A DNA stretch of 49,111 nt from a virus, in IMG/VR virus record IMGVR_UViG_3300047494_000119, positions 1-49,111 of that record; one strand, 5' to 3'. This document shows, one piece after another, positions 4,809 through 47,171 of the stretch. Within the stretch, counting starts at the first letter, position 1. Every line of letters starts with the position of its first letter. The notes below the pieces were generated by a model that was not told the origin of the DNA, ran no database searches, and was given only the letters and a program-made list of their open reading frames with translations. The position numbers and the translations under genes are program-made.

Positions 4809-4962
4809 GGAAGGCGGGGGCTCCGCCCCTCGACCCCGCTGGGGCATAGCCCCAGACCCCGTTCGTACAGAAAGGCTGCCGACCGGTCTCGGCAGCCTTT
4901 CTGTACGAACGGGGTCTGGGGCTATGCCCCAGCGGGGTCGAGGGGCGGAGCCCCCGCCTTCC
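4809..4962. repeat. 154-nt near-perfect palindrome (74-bp arms)
   Basis: Positions 4809-4882 are the exact reverse complement of 4889-4962, leaving a 6-nt centre (CCGGTC). As RNA it would form a very long hairpin in either direction. It lies in host DNA between the phage end (4992) and clpP. It is itself built of smaller GC-rich inverted repeats such as GGGGGCTCCGCCCC and TGGGGCATAGCCCCA, as in dispersed intergenic repeats of some alphaproteobacteria. It may act as a bidirectional terminator. It has no coding evidence; open frames through it are mirror images of each other. Confidence 0.9.
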
Positions 4963-4991: not shown

Positions 4992-5003
4992 TGTTGGACA
5001 CAC
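4992..5003 (+). repeat. Prophage terminal inverted repeat (right end of phage)
   Basis: TGTTGGACACAC, identical to the inward-read other end at 47160-47171. It begins with TG as Mu-family ends do, and marks the junction with host DNA. Confidence 0.85.
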
Positions 5004-5083: not shown

Positions 5084-8000
5084 TTAGAACCCCAGGGCGA
5101 TCACCGGCATCGCGATACCACCGGCTTGCAACGTCGTGCCCCACGTTGCCCCCGACGTGACAACAGTGGCGGTCTGATAATAACCGTTGCGCGGCCCGCT
5201 GTTGGAGAGCGCGCCGGCCGCGCTGGCAGAACCCAGAATGGTGGCGCCTTCCAGCGTCAGGACGTTGTTGGCCAACCCGTCCACGCTCATCACCTGGTCG
5301 CACACCAGCGTCGCATAATGCCAGCCCTGGGTGATCGTCGCCGGCGTGGCTAGGGTCTGAGTGATCACGCCGAGCGTCGCCGATGTCGCCACGCCAAAGC
5401 TTCCAGTGTCGGCGTTGGTGACCAGGTTGTTCGGGAAATCCGTGCTTGCCGTCGGGGTGTAGACCGACATGTCGCAGTTGGCCGCCACGGTGGGATCCAC
5501 GGTCAGCGCAAAGCTCAGGGTCTTCAGCGTCGGGCCGCTGGCGTTCGGAAAGTAGAACGGCAGCGCATAGCGGCGCAGCGCCACGATGCTCTGGGTGGTC
5601 GGCGTGATGCCTGGCGCGGTGCTGTAGAAATTGCCCGCCTGCCACCCGTTCGGCAGGCTCAGCCCGGTTACCGCATTGCCGCTGATCGACGCCGCTGGAA
5701 TGCTGGTCGGCAGCTGCGCGGCCGTCAGGTGTGAGCCGCTATCCAGCGACGCCACGCCGTTCGCTACACCCAGCAGAGAGGCTGCCAGCATCGAGCTGGG
5801 CACCGGCACGTAGTAGTAGTCCCACACGCCGGTGGTGGCGTTCATCGGCACGAATTCCGCCGTCGCACCCACCGGGATGGCGATTGCAGCGCCAGCGGAG
5901 CCCGCCGTGCCCGTGCTGTTGAAGCTATCGGCGGGGATGTCTGGGTAGATGTTGCACGGGTGCAGCGCGAAGCAGAACAGCGTGACCGGATGCCCAATGC
6001 CCACGGACGCCATGGGCGGCAAAATGTAGGTGCCGCTCACCGTATCGGTGTCAGCCTCGGCGAAATACGTGCCGATCTGGCTTGCACCAGCCGGCAGCGC
6101 TCCGCCAGCCACAAGCCCGCTCGCGGTGCTGATCCCGATCGACGCGTAGGTCGCCGGCGATCCAGCCATCAGCACCCCCCCTGGCCCGGCCGAAAGGGGG
6201 CCGGCGTTGGCGAGCTGCGGCAGCGAAAGCGTGCCCGGCATCGTCACGTTGCCAGGGATCGTGTTGCCGCATGTCTCTGGCGCGCTCGGATCGCCGTAGT
6301 AGCCGTTCACCCGCACCGTGCAGGCGGCCGTCGGGTCGATCGACAGCAGCTGCACCGGGCCGGAGGTGGCGTAAGGCGAGCGCTCCAGCTCCACATGGAT
6401 GTCCTGCACCGCGTTGTTGAAGGGGTTGGCGAACATCGCGTTCACCACGCCATCGTTCACGATCACGCTCGGGTCGCTATCGAGCTTGAACACGCAGTAG
6501 GAGCAACCATCCACCCGGAACACCGGCCCATAGGCGGCACCCGATGTCATCACGTCGTTGAACACCTCCTCGTTGTTATAGCCCTGATAGACCGGCCCGA
6601 AACCCACAGCCGCTCCCGACGCCACGGTCGCACTCACCGCGGCACCTGTCTGGTTGTTGATCATCGAGACGTGGGCGGCATCCACCACCTGGCCCACCAC
6701 GGTCGCCGGCGAGGTCGGCACGCCGGTGGCGTAGATCTGCTCGCCAGCGAATATGCCCGCCGTGCTGGGCAGCGTCAGCACCGATCCTGTGCTGCTGGCC
6801 GAGGTCTGGGTGCTCACCGGCGCCGCGCCATACAAATGCAGGCAATACCAGTCATCGGGGGCGGAAATGCACTGCACGCCGGTCCACACGTTGTGGCTGT
6901 CGCCCTTATTGTTGGCCTGCGGCGTGATGCAGTCTTTCGAGCCAATGCAAACCAGGTCTTCAGATGCCTGGGTCGGCGTGGCGCCGCCGACGCCGTGCGT
7001 CACGGTGCCTTCGAAGCGCACATCGCTACGCAGCACCAGGCGAATGCCGCCGGCCGCCGTCCCTTCATCGTGCTCGCAATAGTCCACCCAGCGTGGCCCG
7101 TAGCCCATCAGACCGTTGCCGATCACTTCGTTGGAGCTATCCACGCCGCCCGTGCTGGTCAGCTCATAGGCGCAGTGGCCGGGGCTCCCGGACGTAAAGA
7201 GCCGCAGATTGTATTCAAAGAGCTCGGTTGTGTTGCTCTTCGTTTCGGTCCCGATCGCGCTGCCCCAGCTGAAACACCCCCCGAATGCGTTGGTGCATTC
7301 CAGGTCCTTCACCATGGCGAAGTTGTTCTGGCCGCTCAGCTGAAACCCGCCTGGGCCGGCCTCGGCCAGGCCGTTGTAGCGCAGGCCCGACATGAAGCAG
7401 CCACTGGCATCGAAGCTGGTGCTCACGCCGTTGCCGGCCCAGCTCTGGCTGTTGGTCACCTTGGCGCCGCCATCGCAATCGATCACGTAGCCGCTCAGTT
7501 GCCAGTTGGCGATGAAGGCGGTCATGCCGCTGTTGGTCGGCGATCCCGCTATCCCCACCGGTGCCGCCAGCGGCTTTGGCAGGGTGCCAAAGCTCGGCGT
7601 CGAACCACCAGGGATCCAGATCACGCTGTGGGTGCCGTAGGTCTCGAAGCGATATTGCGCCAGCGCGTTCGCCGCATCCAACGCCGGGGTATCGCTGTCG
7701 TAGTACTGCACCAGCCCCTGCATCCCGAACGTCAGGCCGGTGCTCATCGGGATCTTCAGCTTGGTGGAAGCGGTCACCGTGGTGCCGTTCGGCACCGCCA
7801 GCACGGTGGCGTAGACGGCGCCGGTACTGGTCTGGGCGATGCTGTCGCCCACCAGGATGCCGCTTGTGCTCGCCACGGTGATGGTGGCGCTGCCGCTGCC
7901 TCCGGTGGTGTCCACCGTCGTGGATTGCTGCACGATCGGCAGGCTCTGGCCGGCATTGTCGTGCATCATCACGTCCAGTCCATCGACGTTGGACAGGATC

Positions 8001-9553
8001 GAGCTGTGCATCGGCTGCAGCGGCGTTGCCATCTGCACGGCGGCCAGCGTCGCGGGCACCACCCCCGTACCGGTACCGTTGGTCAGCGCCGCGCTCGGCG
8101 CGCTGGTATATTGGCTGCCCGGATAGGGCTGATCGTAGTGGTCCACGTCGAAGGCGGTGATCTGCGCGCGTGGCGCGATCACGCAAAAGCCCCCCACTTC
8201 CTTCAGCGGCAACAGCGCGCCGGGCGCCGGCGGATTGCCCGTCCATAGCCCGGTGTTCATCTGCGGCACGCCCGCCGGCACGTTCGGGTTCGCAATGATG
8301 GTGAGCGCGCTGCCCGCTGCGCCGCTGATGGTGCCGTTGGCGCCCATGACCACGGACACATAGGTGCCCACGTTACCGCCGCCCATCTGCACGAACGTCT
8401 GCGTTGTTCCGGCCGCGCCCTGGCAGCCAAAGCCACCCAGGCCGCCCAGGCCGGTGCCGTTCTGGGCCAGCACGATCGACTTCACGCCCATCACCGTGCG
8501 CGCAACCGCGCCGGAACCGCCGCCGCCGCTATAGACCACCTGCGGCCACGGCGCGCCGGCCGGATAGGTGCCGCCGCAATTGGAGCTGCCGGTGCCCGGA
8601 TTGGCGCCGGTGGTATCGCAGGTCTGCGCGTTCTGGGTCAGCGCCACCTGGCTGCCGTTGCTCGGCCCATTGGCGAATTCCACGTCGATCATCTGGCCGT
8701 TGTTCAGCGCGCTCCAGTTCGGGTTTTCGGTCAGCGGCACCGAAGGCAGGCCGCTTCCGGCGGCTGGATAGGTGCCGCTGGCGCACAGCTTCACCCCCAG
8801 CGCGGGCGATCCGGCGGTGGTCTGCAGGAAGCACAGCGCGGTCTTGCCGTCGCCGTAATACTTCGCGTTGTAAGGTGCGAAATTCATGCTGCGAATATCG
8901 ATCACGCCCCAATTGGCGATATCGGACATCAGCATCTTGCCCTGCGCGTTCGCTACATAAGCGATGCCGGCGGAAAGATCGGTGCCGCTCACCGATCCGT
9001 TGGTGAGCTGCGGGTTGTTGGCATCCTGCGCGGCCATCGAGCCGATCTGCGCCACACCGCCATTGGCGGCCGCCACGGCGAACATCGCCGCATCAAGCTC
9101 GACGCCGCCAAGCGCCGTGGTGGTCGGGTTCACGATCGGGCCAGGTGGTCCGGCTGCTCCCGGCGCTCCATTCGTACCGTTCGCGCCGTTGGTGCCATTC
9201 GTGCCAGGGTCGCCTTTATCGCCCTTCGGCCCCTGCGGCCCCGTCGCACCGGTCGAGCTGGTGAACGGCACGCCGTTGATCTGGAAGCCGCCGCACGCAT
9301 TGATCACGCCCGCCGCCGGCGTGCCGCCGCAGCCGCCAGCGCGCACCCCGCCACTCGTGCCCAGCGTACCCGTGAAGTTCGGGTTGTTCAGCGGCGCCAC
9401 GTTGTAGCCAGGCCGCACATTGTAGGGGTTCAGCGGCGGCGGCAGCGACTGGGCGTGCGCATGCGCGCCGAGCAGGAATGCCAGGATCAGCGTGAGCGCG
9501 ATCCCCAAAGCCGCCATCGTCTCGGCGCGCCGGCGCGTGGGCGAATTGGTCAT
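5084..9553 (-). CDS. Large collagen-repeat/beta-helix fibre-like protein with signal peptide
   Basis: 1489 aa, last gene of the late region. The ATG at 9553 overlaps the previous stop (ATGA). Residues 1-34 look like a Sec signal peptide: RRR, a hydrophobic stretch around 14-30, and a likely cut after AHA34. Residues 102-140 are 13 uninterrupted Gly-X-Y triplets. The middle part contains a pectin-lyase-like right-handed beta-helix region, and the end resembles a receptor-binding or trimerisation domain. Position and architecture suggest a host-binding fibre. A cleavable export signal is unusual for a virion tail protein, which assembles in the cytoplasm, so it could instead be surface-exposed or secreted by the host cell. 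Several Cys residues fit an exported protein. Confidence 0.85.
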   Translation of the reverse strand: MTNSPTRRRAETMAALGIALTLILAFLLGAHAHAQSLPPPLNPYNVRPGYNVAPLNNPNFTGTLGTSGGVRAGGCGGTPAAGVINACGGFQINGVPFTSSTGATGPQGPKGDKGDPGTNGTNGANGTNGAPGAAGPPGPIVNPTTTALGGVELDAAMFAVAAANGGVAQIGSMAAQDANNPQLTNGSVSGTDLSAGIAYVANAQGKMLMSDIANWGVIDIRSMNFAPYNAKYYGDGKTALCFLQTTAGSPALGVKLCASGTYPAAGSGLPSVPLTENPNWSALNNGQMIDVEFANGPSNGSQVALTQNAQTCDTTGANPGTGSSNCGGTYPAGAPWPQVVYSGGGGSGAVARTVMGVKSIVLAQNGTGLGGLGGFGCQGAAGTTQTFVQMGGGNVGTYVSVVMGANGTISGAAGSALTIIANPNVPAGVPQMNTGLWTGNPPAPGALLPLKEVGGFCVIAPRAQITAFDVDHYDQPYPGSQYTSAPSAALTNGTGTGVVPATLAAVQMATPLQPMHSSILSNVDGLDVMMHDNAGQSLPIVQQSTTVDTTGGSGSATITVASTSGILVGDSIAQTSTGAVYATVLAVPNGTTVTASTKLKIPMSTGLTFGMQGLVQYYDSDTPALDAANALAQYRFETYGTHSVIWIPGGSTPSFGTLPKPLAAPVGIAGSPTNSGMTAFIANWQLSGYVIDCDGGAKVTNSQSWAGNGVSTSFDASGCFMSGLRYNGLAEAGPGGFQLSGQNNFAMVKDLECTNAFGGCFSWGSAIGTETKSNTTELFEYNLRLFTSGSPGHCAYELTSTGGVDSSNEVIGNGLMGYGPRWVDYCEHDEGTAAGGIRLVLRSDVRFEGTVTHGVGGATPTQASEDLVCIGSKDCITPQANNKGDSHNVWTGVQCISAPDDWYCLHLYGAAPVSTQTSASSTGSVLTLPSTAGIFAGEQIYATGVPTSPATVVGQVVDAAHVSMINNQTGAAVSATVASGAAVGFGPVYQGYNNEEVFNDVMTSGAAYGPVFRVDGCSYCVFKLDSDPSVIVNDGVVNAMFANPFNNAVQDIHVELERSPYATSGPVQLLSIDPTAACTVRVNGYYGDPSAPETCGNTIPGNVTMPGTLSLPQLANAGPLSAGPGGVLMAGSPATYASIGISTASGLVAGGALPAGASQIGTYFAEADTDTVSGTYILPPMASVGIGHPVTLFCFALHPCNIYPDIPADSFNSTGTAGSAGAAIAIPVGATAEFVPMNATTGVWDYYYVPVPSSMLAASLLGVANGVASLDSGSHLTAAQLPTSIPAASISGNAVTGLSLPNGWQAGNFYSTAPGITPTTQSIVALRRYALPFYFPNASGPTLKTLSFALTVDPTVAANCDMSVYTPTASTDFPNNLVTNADTGSFGVATSATLGVITQTLATPATITQGWHYATLVCDQVMSVDGLANNVLTLEGATILGSASAAGALSNSGPRNGYYQTATVVTSGATWGTTLQAGGIAMPVIALGF

Positions 9554-10443
9554 GCGGTCGCTCCGATCGTGATCATGCCGGTCCAGCGGATTTGCCGTCC
9601 GGCAATCCCCACCCCGTCGATTTCCAGTCCGCCGGCGTTCAGCCCCGCCATCACCGCGCAGCCAGCAAGCGACGGATCGGCCAGCACGGGTGTGATGATG
9701 GGATTGGTCACCTGGCTGCCGTCGCCGGCGTTGCCGGGGAAACTCAGCGTGCCGCCCGCCCCGCGCACGACGGCCGCCAGCACCTGCCACACGCTCACCG
9801 CACCGGTGATCATGTCCTGCGCCACGATGAAGCCGTCGCCGATCTGCGCACCGATCACGCCGGCGGCCAGCGCCGGCAGGGCGGCCAGCGTGGTGCTGGC
9901 GGCAGTGCTGGTGATGGTGCCGATGCTCATCACCGGCACGCCGCCGGCGATCGTCGGCAGCTGCATGCTGCCCGCAACAGTCATCACGCCGCCCCAGGCG
10001 ATCTGGCGGCCGCTCAGGCCCGTGCCCTCGATCTGAATGCCGCCGCCGCCCAGCGCGATACCCACCGCGCAGCCGGCCAGCGTGGCGTCCGCCAGCACCG
10101 GCGTCACCACTGGGTTGGTGGCCTGGCTGCCGTCGGTCGGATCACCCGGAAACGCCAGCACCCCGCCCACGCCGGCCACGGCGATCGCCAGCACCTGCCA
10201 CACGCTGCACGCGCCGCTCACCTGATCCAGCGCCATCACGAAGCCGGCCGCCATCTGCGCGCCGATCAGGCCGCTGGGCAGCACCGGCAGCGTCAGCAGC
10301 GTGGCGGTGGTGGCGGCCGTCGTGCTGGCCGCGATGCTCAGCACCTGGTTGCTGCCGCCGCCTACCACGGTCTGCGGGAACGCGCCGCCGAACCCCACCA
10401 CCACGCGGGCGGGCGCGTTGCTCTGGGTGATGACCAGCTTCAC
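9550..10443 (-). CDS. Tail/fibre-region protein with tandem internal duplication
   Basis: 297 aa with a GTG start at 10443 overlapping the previous stop (GTGA). The upstream in-frame extension is a shadow of other genes. The protein has two clearly homologous halves of about 125 residues, each with SVWQVLA, a G-G-L-FPG segment, DGSQ-TNP, TPVLAD, LAGCAV and GRQI in the same order. No family was recognised. Its place between the gp48/fibre genes and the large fibre suggests a baseplate or fibre accessory role. Confidence 0.8.
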   Translation of the reverse strand: MKLVITQSNAPARVVVGFGGAFPQTVVGGGSNQVLSIAASTTAATTATLLTLPVLPSGLIGAQMAAGFVMALDQVSGACSVWQVLAIAVAGVGGVLAFPGDPTDGSQATNPVVTPVLADATLAGCAVGIALGGGGIQIEGTGLSGRQIAWGGVMTVAGSMQLPTIAGGVPVMSIGTITSTAASTTLAALPALAAGVIGAQIGDGFIVAQDMITGAVSVWQVLAAVVRGAGGTLSFPGNAGDGSQVTNPIITPVLADPSLAGCAVMAGLNAGGLEIDGVGIAGRQIRWTGMITIGATA

Positions 10444-10757
10444 TGATACACCGCCGGCGGATCGACGTAGATCGGGAAGCTCTCGCTGATCGCCACCGTG
10501 CCATAGCTCTGGATCGTCACGTCGGCGCGCAGCTGGCCCAGCGGCCAGGCGGCCGTCGCGTCCACCTCCAGCGTCAGCACGCCCACGGTGCCGGCCGGCT
10601 GCGTCAGCGGCGGCATATCCACCAGGTTGCCGTCGATATCGGCGATCCCGCAGCTCACCACCGAAAGCGGATCGATCGCGAAGTTGCTGCCGTCGGCGTT
10701 CAGCAGCTGCATCGACAGGATCAGCGAGGCGCCGCGCTTGATGTGGATGTCGGCCAC
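10440..10757 (-). CDS. Small fibre-region protein, beta-rich
   Basis: 105 aa, starting 6 bp after the preceding fibre gene and overlapping the next by 4 bases. The N-terminal segment ADIHIKRGASL and the alternating hydrophobic pattern suggest a small beta-sandwich domain of the kind found beside tail-fibre genes. No catalytic motif is seen. Probably a structural fibre or baseplate accessory protein. Confidence 0.7.
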   Translation of the reverse strand: MADIHIKRGASLILSMQLLNADGSNFAIDPLSVVSCGIADIDGNLVDMPPLTQPAGTVGVLTLEVDATAAWPLGQLRADVTIQSYGTVAISESFPIYVDPPAVYQ

Positions 10758-10763
10758 GGGCGC

Positions 10764-11687
10764 TTAGTTGTATTCGTCGACGATGATGTAGCCGCCGTAG
10801 GCTTGGCCGCCCTGGGCGGTCGCTTGGCCTTGCCACAGCGCGGCACCCGATCCACCGGAACCTGGTCCGCTGCTGCCCGGCCCCGAGCCGGCGTTCGGCT
10901 GCCCGGCCGCGGTGCCGATCAGGGAGTAGCCGCCGGCCGAGAACCCGATGGCGCCGCCGTCGCTGCCCACCACCATAGTCGCGGAGAGCGCGAGGCCGAG
11001 GCCACCCATCGCCCCCGGTGTCATCAGCACGATGCCCACGCCGCTGCCGACCAGCGGCTGCAGGCCGCCCGCCGCGCCCTTGATGGCGATGGGGCTGGCG
11101 AACGTCGTCGCTGCGCCTTGCGCGCCGCCGCCGCCGCCGAAGCAGGTGATGCTGAGCGGCGGCGGCGTGCCGCCTGGCGCGGTGTAGGCGCCAAACCAGC
11201 TCGCCGACCCCGCAGGGCCGGCGCCAGGGCCAGCCGCGCCGGCCGCGCCCACCTGGAAAGCGCAGGCAACCGGGTTGGCGATAAACCCTTCGAAGTAGCT
11301 GCCGCTGCCGCCCCCGCCGCCCAGCGCCACCTGGCCGGTGCTGGTGGCCAGGCCGCCGCCGCCGCATCCGCCGCCACCAAGCATGCGGATGCGGATCAGC
11401 TTGGTGGCCGGTTGCGGCGTAAAGGTGCCGGCGCTGTAGCCGGGCAAATCCTCCGATGCGATCCGCCGACCGCTCGTCAGGATCAGGATCGCCTGTTGCA
11501 GCTGCGTATTGTCGGCGTCGGTGGGCGTCAGCCCGGCGGCCACCACCGGGTTCAGAATGCTGTCCTGCACCCCGTTCAGCCAGGTGGCGTCAACATCCGA
11601 TCCGTTGATGCCGGCTGCCAGGTTCTGGTCCTGGAAGGATCGCACCCCGCCGACAGTGATGTAGCCAGCGCCGCTCGTGTAATCCAT
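10764..11687 (-). CDS. Glycine-rich tail fibre protein
   Basis: 307 aa. The N-terminal about 75 residues (SFQDQNLAAGINGSDVDATWLNG and after) resemble the baseplate-proximal part of phage tail fibres. The rest is made of glycine-rich runs such as GGGGCGGGG and GGGGGSGS, like glycine-rich adhesins of contractile phages. It follows gp48, the Mu position of tail-fibre gene S. The ATG at 11687 directly abuts the gp48 stop. Confidence 0.85.
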   Translation of the reverse strand: MDYTSGAGYITVGGVRSFQDQNLAAGINGSDVDATWLNGVQDSILNPVVAAGLTPTDADNTQLQQAILILTSGRRIASEDLPGYSAGTFTPQPATKLIRIRMLGGGGCGGGGLATSTGQVALGGGGGSGSYFEGFIANPVACAFQVGAAGAAGPGAGPAGSASWFGAYTAPGGTPPPLSITCFGGGGGAQGAATTFASPIAIKGAAGGLQPLVGSGVGIVLMTPGAMGGLGLALSATMVVGSDGGAIGFSAGGYSLIGTAAGQPNAGSGPGSSGPGSGGSGAALWQGQATAQGGQAYGGYIIVDEYN

Positions 11688-12314
11688 CTAGGCCCCGCCT
11701 GTGTAATTGAAGACCACCAGGCAATCGGCCGGGCCGTACAGCCGCAGCATTGCCTCCACGCCGATCGGCACGATGGCGCCGATGGAATTGCCGGCAGAGC
11801 TGCCGCCGGCGCGAAACGGGATCACCTGGGTTGCCGGTAAATTCACCCGCCAGATGCGCGATTGCGCCGAGCTGATCACCGCGGCGCCGGCCACGAAGCC
11901 GCCCGCCACCATCGGCGCGAACTCATCGACGGTGATGACCACGCCCATGGTGGCGCACAGCGCGATGAAATAGGCCGCCGACTGGCCGCCTGGGCTCATC
12001 GTCCAGCGGCGGAACGCAGTCTGCCGCCGCTGCGTCAGGCTCGGGTCCGAGCTGCTCGGCATCGCCGCCGGATCAGGCCCCAGCACGCGCTCATAATCCG
12101 GCAGCAGCTGGCTGGCTGTTCGTGGATCGATCTCGTCCTGCATGCTCTCGGCGTCGGCTTCCAGGGTGGCGATCGCATCCGCCAGCGGATACAGGCTCTT
12201 GCCGACGTTGCTGGCCTGGCTGCGCCACCACACCCAGCCGCGCGGCACCAGGCCGATCAGCCCGTTCCACACATCGGTCAGCGAGCGCAGGCTCGATCCG
12301 GTGCTGTCGCTCAT
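11688..12314 (-). CDS. Mu gp48-like baseplate/tail protein (DUF2313)
   Basis: 208 aa, normal for the family. It has LIGLVPRGWVWW near the N-terminus, an acidic helical segment ending in DEIDPRTASQLLPDYERVLG, and QRRQTAFRRWTM, all typical of the DUF2313 tail family. It follows the baseplate J gene with a 13-bp gap. In Mu this protein belongs to the baseplate periphery that carries the fibres. Confidence 0.88.
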   Translation of the reverse strand: MSDSTGSSLRSLTDVWNGLIGLVPRGWVWWRSQASNVGKSLYPLADAIATLEADAESMQDEIDPRTASQLLPDYERVLGPDPAAMPSSSDPSLTQRRQTAFRRWTMSPGGQSAAYFIALCATMGVVITVDEFAPMVAGGFVAGAAVISSAQSRIWRVNLPATQVIPFRAGGSSAGNSIGAIVPIGVEAMLRLYGPADCLVVFNYTGGA

Positions 12315-12327
12315 GCCAGGATGGCGC

Positions 12328-13440
12328 TCATGTGGCCGGCACGAAGGTGATCGTGCCCAGCACCGGGATCTGCCCGGTGCCCGGCGTCACGTCGGCGGTC
12401 GGCGCCTGCCGCTCATGGCTGTATTCGCCATCGCTGCTGCTCAGCGCGTTATCCAGCCGGCTCATGTAGATGATGCCGCCCGGCGAGGTGGTGCCATCCA
12501 CCGGGTTCATCACCGGGCCGCCGATCTTTCCGTCCTGTGCAAAGAACAGTTGCAGCGCGCTGGTGGCGGCTGCCCGCGTGGCGGTGGTGTCCGGGTTCAG
12601 GGTGATCGAGACGTTCACCGGCAGCAGGCTGGCAGCGAAGGTTTGCACCCGGCTGCCCACCGGCTTCTTGGCCAGCAGCGCCGCCTGCACCGCGGCCACC
12701 TCAGGCCCGCTCGGCACCGCCGGACCGGGCATGGCGATCGTCACGCCCACGTTGCCGAGGCCTTGGATCTGCGCGGGCGCCACGTAGACGTACAGGCCCG
12801 GATACACCGCGCTCGCCCAGGTCTCGTAGTCCTCCGCGTCGCCGCCCATGGCCGGCGCCCGCCACTCCGCCAGGATGCGGGCGCGCCAGTCGTCGATGCT
12901 TTCCAGATCGGTGCCGCCGGTCAGGCCGGCGCTGGTCAATGTGCAGCTTTGAGGGGTCAAGCCTGGATAGGGGCTCACCACGTTCATCACGGTGCCGCCG
13001 GCCAGGTTGCTTTGCGCGCCGGGTTCACTCGCCACCAGCGGCACGGCCGCGCTGCCCGCCGCCGGGATGGTGGTGGCCGCCGTCACCAGGGCGATGATGC
13101 CGCTGATCGGATCGAGGAACGCGAAGCCCACCGGCAGCGTGATCGCGCTGCTGCCCGTGGTCGCCACCGTGCCGCTGCCCGAGGCGGCCGCCGCCAATAT
13201 CTGCGGCACCCCGCGGATGCTGGCGTGGCGCGCCAGCCAGTTCTCCGCCGTGTCCGGCATCAGCTCCTGGCCCAGGCCGGCGAGGTAGGTGTATTCGTCG
13301 AACGTCGCCATGGCGTTCACGCGGCAGATCACCGTCATCGCGCGGTTCGGCGATCGCGCATCGCAGCCCGGAAACTGCGCCTCGAACATGCTGGCGTTGC
13401 GGTCTTGCAGGCTCAGCGGATCGGGGATCGCCAGCGGCAT
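12328..13440 (-). CDS. Mu gp47-like baseplate J protein
   Basis: 370 aa, baseplate wedge component. The ATG at 13440 overlaps the gp46 stop by one base (TGATG); the longer in-frame extension is the shadow of gp46. Features of the baseplate J family are the early PSLxxR-like segment (LAIPDPLSLQDRN), LGQELMPDTAENWLARHA, and a central SAGLTGGTDLESIDDWRARIL motif. It forms a baseplate block with gp45, gp46 and gp48. Confidence 0.92.
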   Translation of the reverse strand: MPLAIPDPLSLQDRNASMFEAQFPGCDARSPNRAMTVICRVNAMATFDEYTYLAGLGQELMPDTAENWLARHASIRGVPQILAAAASGSGTVATTGSSAITLPVGFAFLDPISGIIALVTAATTIPAAGSAAVPLVASEPGAQSNLAGGTVMNVVSPYPGLTPQSCTLTSAGLTGGTDLESIDDWRARILAEWRAPAMGGDAEDYETWASAVYPGLYVYVAPAQIQGLGNVGVTIAMPGPAVPSGPEVAAVQAALLAKKPVGSRVQTFAASLLPVNVSITLNPDTTATRAAATSALQLFFAQDGKIGGPVMNPVDGTTSPGGIIYMSRLDNALSSSDGEYSHERQAPTADVTPGTGQIPVLGTITFVPAT

Positions 13441-13901
13441 CAGCTGCCCGTCGCTTGCTGCAAGGTGATCGTGGTGGCGCCGTCCACCACCTGGCTGCCC
13501 AGCGTGTTCGGCGCGATCCAGTCGCACACGATGCCCACCACGCGGCCCAGCTGGGTTTGCCGCCACAGCAGGCTATCGGCGAGCGCCTGCGCATAGCCAC
13601 GGCGCACCGCCTCGTTCTGTTTGCTGCGCCGGAACACCCAGCAGCGCGAGCCGATGGTCCGGCCGAGCCGATCGAGCGCATCGCCCGGCCAGCCGCCGCG
13701 CGCATCCAGCCGCGTGGGTGTGTTGAACGCAGGCTGCGGGAAATCGGGCAGCTCGTCGGACGGCAGCGCCCGCGCATCGGTGCCGGTCGAGATCAACAGC
13801 GCCGTTGCCGGCGTCGTGTCGAACGCGAAATCGGTGCCGTTGAACACAAAGTCGCAGCGCTGCGACCCTGGGTCGTAGGCAAGGGCGATGTCGTAATCCA
13901 T
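13440..13901 (-). CDS. Mu gp46-like baseplate protein (GP46 family)
   Basis: 153 aa. DYDIALAYD at the start and the later GGWPGDALDRLGRTIGSRCWVFRRSK segment match the GP46/gpW-like baseplate family. It heads a transcription unit: the phage's conserved palindromic promoter element lies 34 nt upstream, after the gp45 gene. It is translationally coupled to gp47. Confidence 0.9.
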   Translation of the reverse strand: MDYDIALAYDPGSQRCDFVFNGTDFAFDTTPATALLISTGTDARALPSDELPDFPQPAFNTPTRLDARGGWPGDALDRLGRTIGSRCWVFRRSKQNEAVRRGYAQALADSLLWRQTQLGRVVGIVCDWIAPNTLGSQVVDGATTITLQQATGS

Positions 13902-45876: not shown

Positions 45877-46407
45877 ATGTCATCGGAAGTCCGACCAACT
45901 GGTCAGGGTTCGTCAGACTTAGCGGCGAGGCTCAAGGCCGCAGTGAGAGCATCTGGGGGAAACAAGGCCGTTGCCTTGAGAGCGAACGTCCCGCTCGGCT
46001 CGCTCAGCAACTATATTGCAGGCCGCAACGTCCCCTCTGCTAAAGCCCTATCGCAGATAGCGAACGCCTGTCGGGTTAACCTTCATTGGCTGACGCAGGG
46101 TGAGGGGCAGATGGATGCGGCTTCTGCCGCAGAGCCTTTTAAGGTTGTCTTTCCGAGCGGCGAGTATCAGCGGCACCCGCATACACGCCTTCAACCGGTC
46201 ACCAGTCTCAGCCTCCTGGCAATCGCCATGCGTCTGGCGGTCTTCTCTCTGCCGGATGAAAACCCCGACCACGTCGCCTTGCCTGCCCCAGGCGACATTT
46301 GGGAACGCCGCGCCAAGCTCACCCTGCAGTCCTATGACAACATGATCGCCTCGGTCGATCAGATCGGCCAACCCGACCCGACCGATCCCAGCGGAGAACA
46401 GCCATGA
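45877..46407 (+). CDS. Prophage repressor (XRE helix-turn-helix, CI-type)
   Basis: 176 aa, the only gene pair read rightward. The helix-turn-helix at about 28-55 (NKAVALRANVPLGSLSNYIAGR) and the following INACRVNLHWLTQGEG-like segment are the XRE pattern of phage repressors. There is no S24 (LexA-like) peptidase motif in the C-terminal 95 residues, so RecA-driven self-cleavage is not expected. The next gene overlaps by 4 bases (ATGA). Confidence 0.88.
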   Translation: MSSEVRPTGQGSSDLAARLKAAVRASGGNKAVALRANVPLGSLSNYIAGRNVPSAKALSQIANACRVNLHWLTQGEGQMDAASAAEPFKVVFPSGEYQRHPHTRLQPVTSLSLLAIAMRLAVFSLPDENPDHVALPAPGDIWERRAKLTLQSYDNMIASVDQIGQPDPTDPSGEQP

Positions 46408-46931
46408 TCAACCCAAGGCTCTGTTTTTACATAGTGTTATCAGCGTCCGCAGGCATGGCTACATGCGCCCGCGCCGACGACATCACTGAACCCCTGGCAC
46501 AGAGCGGCAGCTGGGTCGCCGGCGACCACCGGATGTCGATCACCGATGCGGCGGACGTCTGTATCGCGTCCAGCGATGCCGGCCTCGGCTTCCGCTATGG
46601 CAATGGCGGCATCGAGATTCACATGAGCCACGACAGTTGGACACTTCCGGCGGGTGTAGCTGGACAGTTCACCCTGGTGATCGGCAGCTCTCGGCACACT
46701 TTCAGCGTAGAGGCCAACACTGCCACTATGGTTGCTGCTAATCTGCCGATGGGGGATGCGCCAGGCTTGTTCGATGAGATCGCTGAGGCGCCGGCCATGA
46801 CGGTCCAGGTCGGCAACGCAAAGCCGATCCCTGTCGCTCTCGACGGGAGCAAAGTTGTTCTTGCGGCCTTCCGCACCTGCGCCGGCATCAACGGCGGCAA
46901 CGGCGGCGGCGAGAACCCTTTCGCGCATTGA
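46404..46931 (+). CDS. Exported protein coupled to the repressor (lysogenic cargo)
   Basis: 175 aa; ATG overlaps the repressor stop. Residues 1-24 form a Sec signal peptide (hydrophobic FYIVLSASAGMA, likely cut after ARA24). The mature part is beta-rich with GHRMS-like GDHRMSITDAADVCIA, HDSWTLPAGVAGQFTLVIG and a final AAFRTCAGI; two Cys may pair. It resembles small periplasmic proteins but no family is assigned. As it would be expressed with the repressor, it is a candidate for altering the lysogen, e.g. superinfection exclusion. Confidence 0.78.
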   Translation: MINPRLCFYIVLSASAGMATCARADDITEPLAQSGSWVAGDHRMSITDAADVCIASSDAGLGFRYGNGGIEIHMSHDSWTLPAGVAGQFTLVIGSSRHTFSVEANTATMVAANLPMGDAPGLFDEIAEAPAMTVQVGNAKPIPVALDGSKVVLAAFRTCAGINGGNGGGENPFAH

Positions 46932-47159: not shown

Positions 47160-47171
47160 GTGTGTCCAACA
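47160..47171 (-). repeat. Prophage terminal inverted repeat (left end of phage)
   Basis: Reads TGTTGGACACAC inward on the minus strand, identical to 4992-5003. A partial copy, TGTCCAA, occurs at 47024-47030 and again within the end at 47163-47169, possibly marking transposase sites. The 177 bp before this point (46977-47159) hold no gene. Confidence 0.85.

Follow-up and report, generated by a model that had tools for sequence, protein, structure and literature searches.

A collagen-repeat fibre-like protein with a predicted Sec signal peptide, and its counterparts in Acetobacteraceae prophages with Mu-type tails

Known phage tails assemble in the cytoplasm, which counts against an account of an exported fibre, and the textbook position is that tail fibres fold and assemble there; the class of proteins represented here by P0001 would be contrary to it. 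The Sec pathway delivers proteins to the periplasm only. The tail fibre S of Mu and Mu-like phages shares with this class its position after gp48, its late operon, and the combination of a modular N-terminus with an exchangeable binding part, but Mu S has no signal peptide and a single cysteine, and in the loci described here an S-type fibre exists additionally. Pectate-lyase-like tailspikes (PF12708/PF13229; PHROG tail spike) are matched by several members of the class, which nonetheless differ from them in their cleavable-looking signal peptides and paired cysteines, and P0001 itself has no such match among the Pfam and PHROG profiles. WceF of Pantoea stewartii is likewise an exported protein with a phage tailspike-like fold, but it is the product of a bacterial gene rather than a late phage gene, is exported by Tat, and acts on the exopolysaccharide of its own host (PMC7949094). 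The endolysin Lys44 of phage fOg44 (described in PMC6116005) is a phage protein with a cleavable signal that passes through the host Sec system, although it is a lysis enzyme and not a fibre. One survey took the absence of signal peptides as support for phage origin (PMC6199706), and in the open-access literature we came across no account of tail fibres that carry signal peptides. A recurrent exported class, if true, would mean either that virions collect periplasmic parts or that fibre mimics are produced by phages and sent out of the cytoplasm ahead of lysis, and it would be a source of glycan-binding proteins, stabilised by disulfides, from hosts that live in acid.

The prophage and its final gene

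The window, which is the whole 49,111-nucleotide stretch analysed, is an IMG/VR virus record containing a prophage whose inverted repeat copies lie at 4992 and at 47160-47171; no target-site duplication was recognised at the prophage ends. Host tig and clpP/clpX/lon (gene names assigned by reading) flank the prophage outside these boundaries, the host ClpX is 90-92% identical to ClpX of Acetobacteraceae and related MAGs, and the prophage host is a member of the Acetobacteraceae. The gp45, gp46, gp47, gp48, and sheath proteins of the prophage are Mu-type, and the P0001 gene is its final gene, reached in the order gp47, gp48, P0003, two small genes, and P0001:

4992..47171, no strand: prophage, with a 12-bp perfect inverted repeat, TGTTGGACACAC / GTGTGTCCAACA, at both ends
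12328..13566, minus strand: Baseplate J (Mu gp47; PF04865)
11688..12314, minus strand: Mu gp48 baseplate protein (PF10076)
10764..11687, minus strand: P0003, conventional fibre without a signal, with a Mu-S-type adaptor and a Gly-rich domain (Pfam Gly_rich_2, PHROG tail fibre)
10440..10757, minus strand: small fibre-cassette gene, 105 aa
9550..10443, minus strand: upstream gene, about 297 aa, GTG start, stop overlapping the P0001 start (ATGA)
5084..9553, minus strand: P0001, collagen-repeat fibre-like protein, 1489 aa (open reading frame with stop)

The start ATG of P0001, at 9553, has GGAG 7 nt upstream, a good Shine-Dalgarno site, and forms an ATGA overlap with the stop codon of the gene before it. 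The product of that preceding gene begins VKLVITQ and by eye is like the genes that precede signal-bearing fibres at two of the surveyed loci, L185 and L196. The parts of P0001 are best described together with those of its only close relative, P0004, a 1271-aa protein encoded on a 17.4-kb virus contig (L002):

9452..9553, minus strand: Sec-type signal peptide from a rule-based scan, residues 1-34, predicted cleavage between AHA34 and QS; identical in P0004
9251..9451, minus strand: mature N-terminal domain, residues 35-101, with the cysteine pair C75/C87, conserved in P0004
9134..9250, minus strand: collagen-like shaft, 13 Gly-X-Y triplets, residues 102-140
6200..8970, minus strand: exchangeable middle (approximate), about residues 195-1118, unrelated in P0004
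5087..5677, minus strand: C-terminal module, residues 1293-1489, conserved in P0004 at about 49% identity

An earlier note, made from the sequence, had described a 1489-residue protein that starts with RRR, a hydrophobic stretch, and an AHA34 site, and the open reading frame and a residue check bear this out in full: RRR is at residues 7-9 and is followed by the hydrophobic stretch and the A34/Q35 site, such that n-, h-, and c-regions and an AXA motif are all present. Among the 134 start sites of the window that follow a Shine-Dalgarno sequence and open onto 60 or more codons, P0001 is the sole signal-peptide-like one in a rule-based scan; here and at the other loci, signal peptides were called by simple rules and by eye rather than with SignalP. 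Tat export was considered for the RRR and set aside, as the motif does not fit. The 13 perfect Gly-X-Y triplets of the earlier note are also exact, running uninterrupted from G102 to I140, and the Pfam Collagen profile scores 26.5 bits on P0001 (E 5e-6), slightly below the cut-off of 27.2, and 31.8 bits, above it, on P0004. A beta-helix-like part had been claimed as well and is not confirmed: P0001 has no Pfam or PHROG match outside the collagen stretch, and AlphaFold gives a pLDDT of 33 for residues 535-1100 (and of 30 for residues 1090-1489).

Residues 1-100 of the two proteins, signal included, are 98% identical, the collagen part of P0004 is 7 triplets longer and of different composition, the middles are unrelated, and identity is 49% over the 190 residues at the C-terminal end. 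Ends kept around an apparently exchanged middle are, in this one pair, the modular pattern of receptor-binding fibres. Conservation of the signal region carries no selection signal, and yields no Ka/Ks, because its DNA is identical in P0001 and P0004. Homologue searches of IMG/VR, GTDB genomes, INPHARED, PLSDB, and the 299 Acetobacteraceae genomes with P0001, whole or in parts, returned P0004 alone, one of them also giving weak N-terminal matches that look like chance; no homologue starting at a later Met and lacking the signal, which would speak against export, was found, and the N-terminus of P0004 is the same. P0004 is in addition partially related to the signal-bearing proteins of two surveyed loci, L181 (E 5e-10) and L149 (E 6e-5). 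Set beside tail fibres in general, P0001 has the cassette position and baseplate coupling, and the conserved ends with an exchangeable middle, but it has a signal-peptide-like N-terminus, which such fibres are without.

Signal-bearing fibre loci in Acetobacteraceae

Loci with Mu gp48 were surveyed by locating PF10076 in 299 Acetobacteraceae genomes, 54 of them positive, and scanning the downstream DNA for signal peptides, which gave 52 usable Acetobacteraceae loci; 21 usable control loci came from other Alphaproteobacteria and Pseudomonadota. Comparison of N-termini at these fibre loci places signal peptides in 16 other prophages, with large tailspike- or fibre-like signal-peptide proteins at 16 of the 52 Acetobacteraceae loci (300 to 970 aa, with two truncated at a contig end), and no such protein was accepted at any of the 21 control loci after inspection (Fisher p 0.002, a value that depends on the manual inspection). 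The automatic scan alone finds matches at 11 of 50 Acetobacteraceae and 2 of 21 control loci, a difference that is not convincing; two of the 11 (L183 and L192) were judged spurious, loci missed by the scan were added by inspection, and both control matches (L204 and L221) were judged to lie outside a prophage and so were excluded. By reading, no obvious signal is present on the fibres of isolated phages with Mu-like genes (Mu, RcapMu, MuM16-2, YPCBV-1, and PBb002). P0001 is a member of a recurrent class in Acetobacteraceae prophages with Mu-type tails.

Examples of the signals and their predicted cleavage are MKILAALVALIPCAALA followed by QHAPA, MKSLLLAGVATLAVATLAHA followed by QPYMT, and MRKFILAIALLLAPLGASA followed by QALGP, and cleavage-type sites of this AXA-Q form recur among unrelated sequences. 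Most signal-bearing genes start within, or shortly after the end of, a phage gene lying upstream, and at L156, L160, and L188 that upstream gene is gp48, which puts the signal-bearing gene in the place of Mu S. Several of the proteins match Pect-lyase/Beta_helix and PHROG tail spike/fibre profiles. We considered that signal-bearing loci might be those without a normal fibre and rejected this, as all have one: a conventional Mu-S-type fibre without a signal is also present at 16 of 16 signal-bearing loci, the adaptor profile having the P0003 N-terminus as one of its seeds. The data weakly indicate that this conventional fibre is shortened at signal-bearing loci (median of 242 versus 296 residues after the adaptor, p 0.015). 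In the genome of L156 (G030), sheath-, tape-measure-, terminase-, and integrase-like ORFs read by eye lie upstream, which suggests that the element is a whole phage and not a tailocin.

Several further features of these loci were seen. Mu gp48 was found in 54 of 299 Acetobacteraceae genomes (E up to 1e-5) and in 8 of 289 sampled Alphaproteobacteria (E up to 1e-8), such that Mu gp48-type tails seem unusually common in Acetobacteraceae, with the two counts using different E limits. L149 (G078) has four consecutive fibre-cassette genes (673, 126, 907, and 164 aa), all with signal-peptide-like starts. Small (111-142 aa) signal-bearing fibre-cassette proteins with exactly two cysteines in each mature chain are encoded at L167, L193, L159, and L149, and could be minor tail-like proteins that are exported. 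At L145, L149, L168, L173, and L177 the fibre cassette is followed by a conserved small membrane-like protein, possibly a holin, that has an HWWAEAWS or HWFAE-type motif.

Cysteine number and spacing

Exported bacterial proteins prefer even cysteine numbers (PMC7678975). With the predicted signal removed, all 25 complete signal-bearing proteins have an even number of cysteines (23 of 23 among those with any cysteine), P0001 with 26 and P0004 with 12 in the mature chain among them, the effective n being slightly lower given the homologous pairs L150/L186 and P0001/P0004. The proteins were picked before cysteines were counted, although the cleavage sites were set by visual inspection. In several, a single additional cysteine within the signal peptide makes the full-length total odd. 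Along the chain the cysteines also fall into neighbouring pairs (permutation p 1.6e-9 combined and 4.5e-4 for P0001 by itself), and the share of the span in odd gaps is 0.14 against 0.60 expected, compared with 0.61 against 0.635 in the controls. The comparison set of 146 other same-strand ORFs from the signal-bearing and control loci includes 130 with cysteine, of which 58 have an even number, without pairing (Fisher p 8e-8 versus the signal-bearing proteins). A 753-aa protein of L196, found later, also has an even number, and automatic selection at 300 aa or more gives 10 of 11 even, the exception looking like a spurious ORF. Most of the 26 cysteines of P0001 sit in the exchangeable middle as neighbouring pairs, and a pair in the C-terminal module, C1360/C1418, is conserved in P0004.

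These counts bear on both readings that the earlier note had offered. An unusual membrane anchor is disfavoured, since several complete relatives have even cysteines only once the signal peptide is removed. Of export to the host surface, the export half is well supported, by the P0004 N-terminus, the 16 other prophages, and the even, paired cysteines, whereas the surface half is not borne out: Sec reaches no further than the periplasm, P0001 has no lipobox (no Cys at +1) and no Pfam outer-membrane translocator match, and its gene is coupled to late tail genes.

Probable export, possible attachment, and alternative roles

We put at about 0.85 the probability that P0001-type proteins are late-made, Sec-exported, disulfide-bonded fibre- or spike-like proteins, both exported and oxidised; the sequence features behind this are late-gene coupling, a signal, even and paired cysteines, and modularity. 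P0001 appears designed like a tail fibre or spike, with an N-terminal domain, collagen shaft, exchangeable head, and conserved C-terminal module. It would be translated along with the tail genes, exported by Sec and cut after A34, and would fold in the oxidising periplasm, where its 26 cysteines would form mostly neighbouring disulfides. Disulfide formation is the simplest gain from export, because a late protein is released at lysis anyway, and P0001 would most likely be a second receptor- or glycan-binding fibre that requires oxidative folding. The constant N-terminal domain and collagen shaft suggest attachment, most likely to the tail at lysis, and P0001 could come into contact with the tail, by way of its conserved N-terminal domain, once the inner membrane gives way. 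For the whole account with virion docking, in which an exported, oxidised second fibre meets the tail at lysis, we see only slightly less than an even chance, judged from sequence. The corresponding two-compartment assembly, in which capsid, tail tube, and Mu-S fibre would be cytoplasmic and a disulfide-bonded, Sec-exported fibre or spike would fold in the periplasm and attach only during lysis, is a tentative proposal. We note that a second, exported fibre is not obviously needed, because 16 of 16 loci already encode a Mu-S-type fibre.

That same conventional fibre in every signal-bearing locus makes a free-acting glycan or receptor binder conceivable. Such an exported non-virion protein would be made late and act in the periplasm or envelope as a spike-like enzyme or binder, either trimming exopolysaccharide or occupying the receptor and so letting progeny escape with no re-adsorption to debris or superinfection, and we regard this as possible but rather doubtful. 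It is in keeping with the pectate-lyase-like folds of several class members and with the Pantoea enzyme WceF, which is Tat-exported, tailspike-like, and active on its own exopolysaccharide (PMC7949094). However, the constant N-terminal domain and collagen shaft suggest anchoring, the gene sits among those of the tail fibre cassette, an enzyme set free at lysis would need export solely for its disulfides, and catalysis is putative.

Lysogenic conversion, in which the lysogen would display P0001 on its surface as an adhesin or coat protein, is unlikely: it would account for the signal peptide, the adhesin-like design, and the position of P0001 as the last prophage gene in the window, but the ATGA overlap that couples P0001 to tail genes points to late expression, P0001 has neither a lipobox nor a Pfam autotransporter or YadA anchor match, and several relatives have the gene within the operon, ahead of lysis-type genes. 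If P0001 were an ordinary tail fibre assembled in the cytoplasm, its hydrophobic N-terminus would be an anchor in the virion or would resemble a signal by chance. This reading would suit the fibre architecture and locus of P0001, and phage tails can hold disulfides, as in the extensive network of the phage Milano sheath and baseplate (PMC10811340, a text with no mention of signal peptides), but it is improbable given the recurrence of AXA-Q sites in unrelated sequences, a cysteine parity that in several cases is even only without the signal peptide, and the lack of parity or pairing in signal-less proteins of the same loci.

Two other features of the window are recorded here. A large near-perfect palindrome with arms of about 70 bases occupies 4810-4960, in the interval that separates the prophage end from clpP, and resembles a hairpin or terminator element of the host. 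At the opposite prophage end, 46404-46931 on the plus strand codes for a 175-aa protein with a signal-like N-terminus (MINPRLCFYIVLSASAGMATCARADD) that adjoins a repressor-like gene.
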